The translations under genes were made by a program, and so were the position numbers. A stretch of 64,000 nt of DNA, from NCBI RefSeq assembly GCF_003610695.1, contig NZ_RAQH01000004.1, positions 1 to 64,000 on the forward strand. The letters are read 5' to 3'. The notes under the pieces were generated by a model that was not told the origin of the DNA, made no database searches, and was given only the letters and a program-made list of their open reading frames with translations. Origin of the DNA: Epilithonimonas arachidiradicis (lineage in GTDB: Bacteria > Bacteroidota > Bacteroidia > Flavobacteriales > Weeksellaceae). Of this stretch, positions 39,630 through 42,807 are shown in pieces (position 1 is the stretch's first letter; each line of letters starts with the position of its first letter).

Positions 39630-40914
39630 TTTCTAAATATTTTAATCTTACCGAAACGGCATTTTTATGAGCCATCAACTCTTCGGCTTCCGCCATTAAC
39701 TCAATGGTTTTTCCAATGTTTTGAATTCCTTTTTTTGTGATATTCTGAAATGTGATTTTCTTCACAAAACTTTCCAGAGAAACACCGCTGTAATTTTTGG
39801 CAAAACCGTTGGTAGGCAAAGTATGATTGGTTCCGGAAGCATAATCGCCGGCACTTTCCGGACTGTAATTTCCAAGAAATACTGAGCCTGCGTTCTTGAT
39901 TTTATCAGTGAAATTTTCAGCATTTTTAATTGCTAAAATCAAGTGTTCCGGAGCATAATAATTCGAAAATTCAATCGCTTCATTAATAGAATTCAACAAA
40001 ATGGATTTGCTGTTTTGTAAAGCAATTTCTGCAATTTCTTTTCTTGGTAAATCCGTTATTTGTTTCTTAATTTCAATATTAATTTCATTAATAATTTTCT
40101 CAGAATTACTTAATAAAATCACTTGAGAATCTGTTCCGTGTTCGGCTTGTGAAAGCAAATCTATAGCAACAAATTCAGGAGTCGAAGTTTCATCAGCAAT
40201 CACCAAAACTTCACTTGGACCGGCTGGAATATCAATTGCAACACCATAATTCTGAGCCAGCTGTTTGGCCGAAGTCACATATTGATTGCCTGGTCCGAAG
40301 ATTTTATCAACTTTCGGAATGGTTTCTGTGCCAAACGTCAAAGCTGCAATCGCTTGACTTCCGCCAATTTTGAAAATGTTTTTAATCCCAATCAAATCAG
40401 CTGTAAATAAAATCGCGGGATTTATTTTTCCGTTCTTATCGGGTGGCGAACAAAGTGCAACATTTTGACAACCTGCAATAGTCGCTGGAATTCCCAGCAT
40501 CAGAACCGTAGAAAACAGAGGCGCAGTTCCTCCAGGAATATAAATCCCAATATTTTCAATTGCCCGACTTTCTCTCCAGCAAAAAACACCCTCTGTCGTT
40601 TCAATGATATTCTTTTCCTCTTGCTGTGAATTGTGAAATTTTTTAATATTTTCAGAAGCGATTTTAATGGCTGATTTTAGTTCCTCAGAAACTAATTTCT
40701 CTGCTTCATTGATTTCCGATTCAGAGACTTTCAAATCTTGGATTGAAACTTTATCAAATTTTTCTGTGAAGAATTTTAGTGCTTTATCACCGTTATCTTT
40801 AACTTCAGAAAAAACTTCTTTAACTTGACTTTCAAGATTTTCTTGATTTTGTAAAGGCCTCTCACAAAGCGATTTCCATTCGGAAATTGGTGGATATTTG
40901 TACTGCTTCATCAT
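39619..40914 (-). CDS. hisD: Histidinol dehydrogenase
   Basis: NAD enzyme that oxidises histidinol to histidine in two steps with zinc. 431 residues, full length: GGTAPLFSTVLMLGIPATIAG, FGPGNQYVTSAKQLAQ, the signature IDIPAGPSEVLVIADE, LSQAEHGTDSQVIL (Gln and His metal ligands) and YAPEHLIL (catalytic Glu-His). The ATG at 40914 overlaps the hisG stop as ATGA. Confidence 0.97.
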   Translation of the reverse strand: MMKQYKYPPISEWKSLCERPLQNQENLESQVKEVFSEVKDNGDKALKFFTEKFDKVSIQDLKVSESEINEAEKLVSEELKSAIKIASENIKKFHNSQQEEKNIIETTEGVFCWRESRAIENIGIYIPGGTAPLFSTVLMLGIPATIAGCQNVALCSPPDKNGKINPAILFTADLIGIKNIFKIGGSQAIAALTFGTETIPKVDKIFGPGNQYVTSAKQLAQNYGVAIDIPAGPSEVLVIADETSTPEFVAIDLLSQAEHGTDSQVILLSNSEKIINEINIEIKKQITDLPRKEIAEIALQNSKSILLNSINEAIEFSNYYAPEHLILAIKNAENFTDKIKNAGSVFLGNYSPESAGDYASGTNHTLPTNGFAKNYSGVSLESFVKKITFQNITKKGIQNIGKTIELMAEAEELMAHKNAVSVRLKYLENES

Positions 40915-41768
40915 AATATCATTTTTTCAATTTCTAATACCAAAATTCCTTGCGCGCCTTCGTTTTTTAAATTCTCAATCACGTCCCAAAATTGATCTTC
41001 TTTGATTACTGAATGGATGGATGACCAGCCACTTTCTGCCAGAGGTAGAACCGTTGGCGATTTCATTCCGGGTAAGAGATTGATAATTTTTTCAAGATTC
41101 TGATTAGGTGCATTCAGAAGAATATACTTGCTCTCGGAAGCTTCTTTTACGGCATTAATTCTGAATAAAAGTTTGTTTAAAATCTCCAGATTTTCATTAG
41201 ATAAATTCTCATTGGAAATCAAAACGGCTTCGCTTTCCAAAACAGTTTCAACTTCTTTCAAACCATTAGTCAGTAGAGTAGAGCCGGTACTGATGATGTC
41301 AAAAATGCCGTCGGAAAGTCCAATTCCTGGCGCAATTTCTACACTTCCGCCAATCTTTTCGATTTGTACATTGATGTTATTTTCTTGGAAATAGTTTGAA
41401 AGAATCTCTGGATAAGAAGTTGCTACTTTCTTATTTTCAAAATATTGGATTCCGTTATAATTTTCTTCTTTCGGAATTGCCAGAGACAATCTGCATTGCG
41501 CGAATCCAAGTTTCTGAACAAGATCAATATTTTTCTTTTGTTCCAGGACTTCATTCAGTCCGATGATTCCGATATCAGCAACGCCTTGCTCCACATATTG
41601 TGGAATATCATCATCACGAAGAAATAAGATTTCTAATGGAAAATTAGAAGAAACAGCCTTGAGCTTTCTGGTTCCGTTGGAGATTTTGATGCCACATTCT
41701 TCCAGCAGTTTCAGAGACTTTTCGCTCAGTCTTCCGTTTTTTTGAATGGCTAATTTTAGTTTACTCAT
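40911..41768 (-). CDS. hisG: ATP phosphoribosyltransferase
   Basis: First step of histidine synthesis, condensing ATP and PRPP; usually inhibited by histidine. 285 residues of the long form: LKLAIQKNGRLSEKSLKLLEECGI, VADIGIIGLNEVL, the PRPP loop IISTGSTLLTNGLKE, and a C-terminal regulatory domain (about 210-285) with GMKSPTVLPLAESGW. It is the first gene of the operon, preceded by a leader peptide and an attenuator. Confidence 0.97.
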   Translation of the reverse strand: MSKLKLAIQKNGRLSEKSLKLLEECGIKISNGTRKLKAVSSNFPLEILFLRDDDIPQYVEQGVADIGIIGLNEVLEQKKNIDLVQKLGFAQCRLSLAIPKEENYNGIQYFENKKVATSYPEILSNYFQENNINVQIEKIGGSVEIAPGIGLSDGIFDIISTGSTLLTNGLKEVETVLESEAVLISNENLSNENLEILNKLLFRINAVKEASESKYILLNAPNQNLEKIINLLPGMKSPTVLPLAESGWSSIHSVIKEDQFWDVIENLKNEGAQGILVLEIEKMIL

Positions 41769-41820
41769 TTTTGATTTTTATAGATAAAGCCTGAGTAAAC
41801 AACAAGGAAAATTGGGAAAC

Positions 41821-41848
41821 AAAAAACCGCCTGATTACTCAGACGGTT
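41821..41848 (-). terminator. Attenuator (intrinsic terminator) of the his operon leader
   Basis: On the minus strand AACCGTCTGA, loop GTAA, TCAGGCGGTT followed by TTTT. It lies between the leader peptide and hisG. The 3' arm word TCAGGCGG is repeated exactly inside the leader peptide gene, which allows an alternative pairing with the 5' arm. Confidence 0.88.
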
Positions 41849-41876
41849 AATATTATTTTGAAGTTATGACATATCA

Positions 41877-41933
41877 CTACCTTCCCGCCTGAACGTGAAA
41901 ATGGTGATGATGATGCATAAGTTGTATAGACAT
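41877..41933 (-). CDS. hisL: Histidine operon leader peptide
   Basis: An 18-codon ORF on the minus strand, read as MSIQLMHHHHHFHVQAGR, with five His codons in a row, then Phe and another His. It lies between a -7 box and the attenuator upstream of hisG. Slow translation at low His-tRNA would hold the ribosome in the His run. This leaves the downstream TCAGGCGG free to pair with the terminator's 5' arm and permits transcription of the operon. When histidine is plentiful the ribosome reaches the stop codon, covers TCAGGCGG, and the terminator forms. Confidence 0.9.
   Translation of the reverse strand: MSIQLMHHHHHFHVQAGR
41885..41892 (-). promoter_or_regulatory. Antiterminator segment of his attenuator
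   Basis: TCAGGCGG on the minus strand, within codons Val-Gln-Ala-Gly of the leader peptide. It equals the 3' arm of the terminator (41827-41834) and complements its 5' arm CCGTCTGA (one G-U pair), so it can replace that arm. Confidence 0.75.
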
Positions 41934-41953
41934 TTCTTGCTTTTTTGTTGGGA

Positions 41954-41961
41954 CAAATGTA
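41954..41961 (-). promoter_or_regulatory. -7 box of the his operon
   Basis: TACATTTG on the minus strand, 20 bases before the leader peptide ATG. Confidence 0.65.
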
Positions 41962-42000
41962 GAACTAATTTTTAAATAATTATAAAATTATGTAAAAAAA

Positions 42001-42807
42001 TTAATTAAAACTATCTTTCCATTGAGTAATCATTTCTGAAAATCTCGTGTTCTCAAAAGTTTTATTTCTGATTTTTGAAACTGTGTGAATGCCTTTTTCA
42101 TCGGAGATTCTCAGGATTTCTTCAGCTTTTTGAGATTCGAAGGCGATGATTTCTGCTTCTTCTATTTCAGCCAGTTTATTTTTGTGGACAAAAGTGACAA
42201 AGTTTTCCATCAAAGGCGAAATGTATGCGCCTTCCGTTTGTTTTGGAATTTTAATGACATTCTCTTGAAGAAACAAAAGATTTCCAAAAATACTTCTTGC
42301 GATTTTTTTGTTCGGATTCAGAAGAATAACGTCATCCAAATCATTTTCTTTCGCATAAATTTCAGCATAGATATTCTCGGTTGAATGAACTCGGATATTA
42401 CTCAAAAGATTCGCATTAACATTGATTTCCTTAATGAGATCCAGTTCAATATTACCTTGGATATCAAGAATGTCTCCCGATTCTTCCACTTCAAAATAGA
42501 AAGCGGTTTCAGATTTCGGAAGCGGTTTGTCTTCCTGCTTTCTGTAAGCCATCAGTTGGATAATTCCATTCTGAATACCTTTACTCATAACTTCTCTTTG
42601 GAATAATTCCTGAAAAAATTCTAAGGTGTATGTCAGCGGAATATTCAACCTCATTTTTCGCATCGATGCCATCAGGAAAAAATAAGATTCCTCGGCCATT
42701 ATGAGATTTCCGTTTCTTACAAAGAACGATACCCAAACCGAATCACCATAAAGAAAAGAACGGTTGATAAGTTGAAGATTTTCTTCGGTGTAAACTAATT
42801 TTTGCAT
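42001..42807 (-). CDS. Class IV aminotransferase homologue, PLP lysine apparently missing
   Basis: 268 residues with the fold-type IV transaminase layout (aminodeoxychorismate lyase/BCAT relatives): NRSFLYGDSVWVSFFVRNG at the start and LDDVILLNPNKKIARSIFGNLLFLQ in the PLP domain. Where relatives have the Schiff-base Lys (pattern N-L-K-T before the helix), this protein reads LLSNIRVHSTENIY, with Arg in its place (about residue 139). It may be a non-catalytic relative. The start at 42807 is preferred to 42849, which lies inside a hairpin terminator. The START-like gene lies upstream. Confidence 0.72.
   Translation of the reverse strand: MQKLVYTEENLQLINRSFLYGDSVWVSFFVRNGNLIMAEESYFFLMASMRKMRLNIPLTYTLEFFQELFQREVMSKGIQNGIIQLMAYRKQEDKPLPKSETAFYFEVEESGDILDIQGNIELDLIKEINVNANLLSNIRVHSTENIYAEIYAKENDLDDVILLNPNKKIARSIFGNLLFLQENVIKIPKQTEGAYISPLMENFVTFVHKNKLAEIEEAEIIAFESQKAEEILRISDEKGIHTVSKIRNKTFENTRFSEMITQWKDSFN

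Follow-up and report, generated by a model that had tools for sequence, protein, structure and literature searches.

A conserved histidine leader-peptide attenuator upstream of hisG in Epilithonimonas arachidiradicis and its relatives, with an RNA strand that may link the terminator to the hisG start codon

In Epilithonimonas arachidiradicis, the hisG gene is preceded by an element that we take, with little doubt, for a classical leader-peptide attenuator, in which the ribosome would make transcription depend on histidine. This reading of the sequence is favoured because leader and terminator are conserved among relatives and the antiterminator strand, L1, changes together with the terminator arm. 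Between the terminator and hisG lies a further conserved strand, X, which its covariation marks as very probably a selected RNA pairing element. The whole model, an attenuator plus an X strand that would pass the decision on to hisG translation, appears to us rather probable; its dynamics, its response to histidine and the sign of the effect of X are what we infer from the sequences. The locus lies on the minus strand of the window, i.e., the whole stretch of 64,000 nucleotides that was analysed (contig NZ_RAQH01000004.1, positions 1 to 64,000), and comprises the following features.

41954..41961 (-): promoter -7 box TACATTTG, of the TAnnTTTG type, recognized from sequence and conservation
41877..41933 (-): leader peptide ORF MSIQLMHHHHHFHVQAGR, with the stop codon TAG at 41879-41877
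41907..41921 (-): protector helix segment 1 CUUAUGCAUCAUCAU, the His codons and flank, from the MFE structure and the own-versus-swapped test
41885..41892 (-): L1 antiterminator strand TCAGGCGG, in the Val-Gln-Ala-Gly codons, from sequence and covariation
41863..41876 (-): protector helix segment 2 UGAUAUGUCAUAAC, directly 3′ of the leader stop, from the MFE structure and the own-versus-swapped test
41839..41848 (-): terminator 5′ arm AACCGTCTGA
41825..41834 (-): terminator 3′ arm TCAGGCGGTT, with a T run that reaches 41821
41789..41800 (-): X strand GTTTACTCAGGC, complementary to segment A (41844-41835) and to the hisG start (41767-41759)
41759..41768 (-): hisG start ATGAGTAAAC, or S, the second partner of X
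40911..41768 (-): hisG, first gene of the his operon, with its ATG at 41768

The sequence places the leader ATG, at 41933, 20 nt downstream of the promoter box, whose TAnnTTTG pattern we take to be the Bacteroidota -7 motif. Six of the 18 leader codons encode His (41915-41901 and 41897-41895, minus strand). The terminator hairpin, AACCGTCTGA-GTAA-TCAGGCGGTT (41848-41825), has a predicted energy of -14.6 kcal/mol (z -4.8), and 0 of 200 shuffles were as good. Its 5′ arm together with the loop GTAA (41838-41835) makes up segment A, which has L1, the 3′ arm and X as partners. The genes 3′ of hisG on the same strand, down to 34473, are presumably hisD, C, B, H, A, F and IE. An initial annotation of this DNA had already described the promoter box, the 18-codon His-rich leader, the terminator with its T run and then hisG, and all of these are confirmed in the sequence, as are the coordinates of the 8-mer TCAGGCGG, present at 41892-41885 and repeated at 41834-41827 (minus strand). 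A third, partial copy of the repeated word, CTCAGGC, is found at 41795-41789, within a longer conserved element: the X strand, which that annotation had missed.

For the comparison, a HisG search over 197 genomes of the family, 158 of the order and 119 of the class found the protein in 138, 83 and 57 of them, respectively. Upstream regions were taken from 110 of the 138 family genomes with HisG, from 39 of 64 further order genomes with HisG (the endosymbiont genus g53 being represented by one only) and from 40 of 53 further class genomes, which belong to other orders. The main set of 173, mostly Flavobacteriales, joins the 110 family and 39 order regions with 24 named contigs (L124-L147) that may overlap with genomes of the set, while L111-L123, named contigs taken as copies of genomes in the set, were left out. 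Related sequences in all of the counts given here are not independent of each other. Column counts come from a MAFFT alignment of 73 sequences, whose rows were chosen for A:X pairing (p<=0.02) and for diversity, with no selection for X:S; the A:X counts therefore lean toward A:X pairing.

A leader ORF with at least three His codons followed by a terminator was found in 168 of the 173 regions, a number that still counts some divergent rows whose ORF call is wrong or doubtful (at least L153, L155, L160 and L164). In 169 of the 173 there is a leader ORF, whose His count ranges from 3 to 10 (median 5). The five regions without both elements are L109, a reduced genome with neither leader nor terminator; L125, where the leader begins with GTG; L135; L168, where the leader is present and the script called no terminator; and L186, from an endosymbiont-sized genome. 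Among the other orders of the class, leader and terminator are present in 31 of 40 regions, to which L202 and L224 add a GTG-started His leader recognized by eye. In 149 of 167 relatives the TAnnTTTG pattern stands 5′ of the His codons, against 12.7 expected from shuffles, and in half of them it lies 36-42 nt before the first His pair. In the terminator stem, 6 of 7 pairs show double changes in the 73 sequences. The comparison of regions upstream of hisG, which the initial annotation had proposed as a check, thus finds the His-bearing leader and the terminator in nearly all relatives, with an L1 that changes with the arm.

A search of Rfam with positions 41000-42500 returned ten weak matches up to E 5, none of which reached its gathering score; the T-box and other known riboswitches likewise gave no match at that level. 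The His_leader family, whose accession we assume to be RF00514, is absent from these ten. The ten were dismissed as chance, the best by bits, the L20 leader (RF00558), having scored 21.7 against a gathering score of 58.7.

That the leader copy of the 8-mer could pair with the terminator 5′ arm had been proposed from the single sequence, and comparison bears this out. Complementarity of L1 to the arm exceeds that of dinucleotide shuffles at p<=0.05 in 109 of 168 leaders and at p<=0.01 in 48. When each L1 is scored against its own arm and against swapped ones, z is 7.9 over 70 diverged leaders (the doubtful-ORF rows L155, L160 and L198 included), with 1.9 (p 0.03) and -2.3 for control stretches. 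L1 starts between about 15 nt before and 3 nt after the leader stop (5-95%), which is where a ribosome at that stop would cover it. In one clade (L044, L054, L055, L058, L069 and L072) L1 is weak, GCG alone being contiguous with the arm. This clade, L044 and its relatives, retains both A:X and X:S, and regulation there may perhaps lean more on X.

The initial annotation had also described a compact two-state attenuator devoid of a protector helix. This part of its description is refuted, because the His-codon and post-stop segments fit their own partner far better than a swapped one. The segment of His codons plus a 9 nt flank pairs with the 30 nt 3′ of the stop, with a gapped-duplex energy of -9.9 kcal/mol for own partners against -7.2 for swapped ones (z 10.0, n=67 after the doubtful-ORF rows L155, L160 and L198 of the 70 were left out; control z 0.9). 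The signal is found in the order set (z 7.3, n=40) as well as in the other orders (z 6.2, n=27), and an ungapped own-versus-swapped test gives z 6.0; an ungapped shuffle test does not see the pairing, with 19 of 168 at p<=0.05. The helix is also present in the MFE structure of the window itself. The protector helix exists, and L1 lies inside its loop.

Leader-peptide attenuation is a textbook mechanism. The enterobacterial hisL likewise has a run of His codons in a short ORF, alternative antiterminator and terminator structures and a protector helix, all located before hisG. Unlike in hisL, L1 here lies between both protector strands, in the loop, and is not one of them. As further differences from hisL, the X element and its pairing with the hisG start are added, and the region has no Rfam match at the gathering score. 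The abstract of Vitreschak et al. 2004 reportedly mentions Bacteroidetes/Chlorobi. Before Firmicutes were added, leader peptides were known only in Proteobacteria and Actinobacteria, as stated in passages of Naville and Gautheret (PMC2965389), and attenuation is mentioned for enterobacteria in PMC8305728. The Firmicutes his leaders described in PMC9413887 belong to another phylum and also consist of short ORFs with 3-5 consecutive His codons, a terminator and an antiterminator; the passages on them mention no element at the start codon.

Closer to the present lineage, passages of PMC9723704 report, for Flavobacterium psychrophilum, clues for leader-peptide attenuation before amino-acid operons; upstream of hisG they describe a structured 5′ element that other genera share and that has no Rfam hits. 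The gene is the same and the lineage related to ours; section 19 of that paper gives no peptide sequence, antiterminator or X, and does not call the hisG element a leader-peptide attenuator outright. In the same class, Bacteroides thetaiotaomicron has long 5′ UTRs with short ORFs that have been described as reminiscent of attenuation leader peptides (PMC7366714); the passages on them hold no his example, and the string “histid” is absent from the main text. Attenuation in this lineage, which the initial annotation had inferred from the sequence with Proteobacteria as the established case, is supported by conservation and covariation, and does not depend on Proteobacteria alone, given the clues within the flavobacteria in those passages of PMC9723704. 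The his attenuator itself belongs to a kind that is already known, and that source had hinted at it. Covariation extends the textbook attenuator to Bacteroidia, where only hints were found among the open-licence PMC matches listed. Among the same matches, no title or abstract opening deals with his attenuation in Chryseobacterium or Epilithonimonas, nor with an element that, like X, pairs with the hisG start. The new part would be the conserved X strand, whose complementarities appear to tie the terminator to the first gene at its start codon.

In the terminator arm and loop, X (GTTTACTCAGGC, 41800-41789) has GTCTGAGTAA as its partner. Tested against 200 spacer shuffles, X-A complementarity reaches p<=0.01 in 137 of 168 regions and stays at p>0.01 in 31, and scoring own against swapped partners gives z 12.4 (n=43 diverged leaders). 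In the 73 sequences, chosen for A:X, both partners have changed in 9 of 11 pairs and 94.8% of cells are paired, with 0 of 500 shuffles as good on each of the five measures; G-U pairs occur at most positions. In a fixed register of five positions with 55 distinct combinations, A:X is paired in 256 of 275 cells (z 11.4) and S:X in 209 (z 5.0), 4 of 143 rows (L070, L142, L169 and L170) having been skipped because their A lacks a TGA within the paired stretch. The distance from X to the hisG ATG has a median of 18 nt and an sd of 3.9, against an sd of 9.6 for that from X to the terminator. In the other orders of the class, X was found in 2 of 40 regions.

The second partner of X is TGAGTAAAC of the hisG start. 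Pairing between spacer and start reaches p<=0.01 in 52 of 168 regions and p<=0.05 in 101 (200 spacer shuffles); among the 137 with X, a start pairing at p<=0.05 overlaps X in 94. Scoring own against swapped partners gives z 6.6 for X-S (n=43), against 0.8, -1.7 and 0.2 for three windows deeper in hisG, and z 6.9 over 27 representatives with X, against 0.9 and -1.2 for hisG control windows. In the 73 sequences, 6 of 9 X:S pairs and 53 cells have changed on both sides and 85.8% of cells are paired. Three measures (cells included) were equalled in 0 of 500 shuffles, and two of the five do not beat shuffles, which did as well in 38 of 500 cases for the number of pairs changed and in 155 of 500 for the pair types. 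Examples of words that go together are ATGAACAAA in hisG with TTTGTTCA in X, ATGAGTACT with TGTACTCA, and ATGAGTTCA with AGAACTCG. In L030, L041, L142 and L162, X:S is missing or weak though A:X is kept, and A:X may therefore have another job in such lineages.

Predicted energetics, in models that take no account of pseudoknots or ribosomes, depend on whether L1 is included. Without L1, the predicted openness of the hisG start over 137 species is 0.31 with the terminator formed and 0.51 with its 3′ arm excluded, against 0.47 and 0.49 once the spacer is shuffled; it rises by more than 0.1 in 84 of the 137 and falls in one. For the window, the corresponding values are 0.26 and 0.56, and 0.75 when the core of X is replaced. 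These predictions suggest that X may sense whether A sits in the terminator. With L1 included, equilibrium favours L1:A plus X:S, the mean probability of A:X is 0.11, and the start openness is 0.31 in the replete state versus 0.34 in the starved one (up in 16, down in 1). In the role proposed below, A:X must therefore be transient and co-transcriptional. The predicted barrier for X to take A is 5.3 kcal/mol from L1:A and 20.0 from the terminator (medians, n=136, one of the 137 rows having too few L1:A pairs). Once the start is made, return from A:X meets a low predicted barrier, 4.1 kcal/mol, and because A:X is so easily lost at that stage the state with an open start must be a kinetic one. 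Compared as bare duplexes, A:X exceeds L1:A in strength in 103 of 137; among the structures formed before the start is made, it is at least as stable in just 71 of 137, and for the window L1:A has the advantage, -15.5 versus -12.6.

The mechanism that we propose would run as follows. When histidine is present, the ribosome would get to the leader stop and mask L1, the terminator would form and transcription would halt. When histidine is short, the ribosome would stall on the His codons, the protector helix would be broken and L1 would pair with A, so that RNA polymerase would continue; with no ribosome on the leader, the protector helix would enclose L1 and termination would be favoured. In Flavobacteriales, X, located 3′ of the terminator, could pair with the hisG start codon or, alternatively, with A and its loop. 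Where a transcript leaks past a terminator that has formed, X would most likely conceal the hisG start. Where A is held by L1, X would capture A via the free loop, in a toehold exchange, before the hisG start is made; the start would be left open, and ribosomes would presumably bind it first, while the transient A:X state lasts. By this capture, the ribosome-sensed decision would be written again at the level of hisG translation. That X couples to hisG translation in the direction stated is, from the sequences, a matter of roughly equal chances either way. We put forward only tentatively the idea of a single strand acting as a switch on two levels, in which the terminator 5′ arm and loop would mimic the hisG start codon and, when freed, capture the anti-start strand X.

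Several other readings of the same data have to be weighed. X could be a static translational brake that keeps hisG translation low at all times, with X:S as the ground state, A:X mattering little and the attenuator acting on transcription only. Equilibrium folding, which has X:S in both states, and the low barrier from A:X to L1:A plus X:S agree with this; we nevertheless think it unlikely, considering that A:X is better conserved than X:S (256 versus 209 of 275 cells, in rows whose choice for A:X favours it) and that X extends into the arm (CAGAC with GTCTG), an extension for which X:S has no use. A:X might also act otherwise on the read-through mRNA, by keeping the leader open, through mRNA decay or on a site 5′ of the start, the likeness to the start being secondary. 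Such a role would suit L041, L142, L162 and L169, where A:X persists with X:S weak or absent, but X holds its position relative to the hisG ATG more closely than relative to the terminator, and X:S covaries, with the start window only, and we regard it as quite unlikely.

Far less probable still is the two-state attenuator of the initial annotation, with no protector and nothing notable 3′ of the terminator: L1, the terminator and the His run on which it was built are real, and the low count of the ungapped shuffle test (19 of 168) speaks for it, whereas the own-versus-swapped fit of the protector (z 10.0) and the conservation of X do not. Hardly credible, finally, is a DNA operator for a repressor, with A and X as its half-sites and not as RNA partners. 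They do form an inverted repeat about 36 bp apart and 3′ of the promoter (41844-41835 and 41798-41789). G-U pairs, however, stand at most positions, and the words vary by lineage while remaining complementary (A reads GAGTAAA, GAGTATATCA, GAGTGTACTT or GTGCGTA); we reject the operator because words that drift while complementarity stays would be needless for a protein site.

An attenuator whose decision X passes on to hisG translation would have a parallel in the trp operon of Bacillus subtilis, which, in the passages of PMC12288461 devoted to it, likewise combines transcription attenuation with a sequestered initiation site of the first gene. The sensor there is TRAP, a protein that binds tryptophan, and the hidden part is a Shine-Dalgarno sequence (PMC12288461, same passages); here, the ribosome on the leader peptide would be the sensor and the start codon itself the part that is hidden. 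Bacteroidetes mRNAs are described, in PMC6847099, as lacking Shine-Dalgarno sequences, and initiation in Flavobacterium johnsoniae as tuned by secondary structure, and concealing the start codon could therefore be effective. If the model is true, it would represent a ribosome-sensed counterpart of the dual control by TRAP, and a group that lacks Shine-Dalgarno sequences could regulate initiation by concealing the start codon.

Other amino-acid operons were compared. For trp, 26 of 30 trpE loci of the order were scanned; a leader with at least two Trp codons and a terminator was found in 22 of the 26, and the spacer was testable in 20. X was detected at p<=0.01 in 0 of these 20, the start codon being poorly placed in three (L273-L275). 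In the genome of E. arachidiradicis itself, a Trp leader, MNTKNWWWLSNSLSGLKGLSVF, and a terminator stand upstream of trpE on contig C8 (L191 / L266), and the spacer 3′ of that terminator carries a direct copy of the terminator 5′ arm (GACTTCGACA). For thrA, 20 of 30 loci were scanned and five leaders called, of which the one from the same genome is alone convincing; X was found in 0 of the five. That leader, on contig C3 upstream of thrA (L193 / L236), is Thr-rich, MNFIFTTTTSTSTTTTSVSCRKVRL, and is accompanied by a terminator and an L1-like word, the gene 3′ of it encoding 814 aa with an aspartokinase domain. Still in this genome, no leader was evident by eye upstream of pheA and lysC, and no ilvB scored above the family cut-off. 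Upstream of its prephenate dehydratase gene (L188) there is an inverted pair, CTTCGACT / AGTCGAAG, which looks like a dispersed intergenic repeat.

With respect to hisG itself, the Epilithonimonas HisG is about 70% identical to those of genera g16, g21 and g23 and of the relatives of Flavobacterium aquatile, and just 55-60% identical to that of g20, of the same family, and 56% to that of G095, of its own genus. Going by these identities, hisG seems to have been transferred from lineage to lineage, perhaps together with its leader. In two genomes the gene is interrupted: at G080:C1 786927-789518 it lies in two pieces about 1.7 kb apart, and at G066:C1 366633-367477 it appears as two overlapping matches with an internal TAA.
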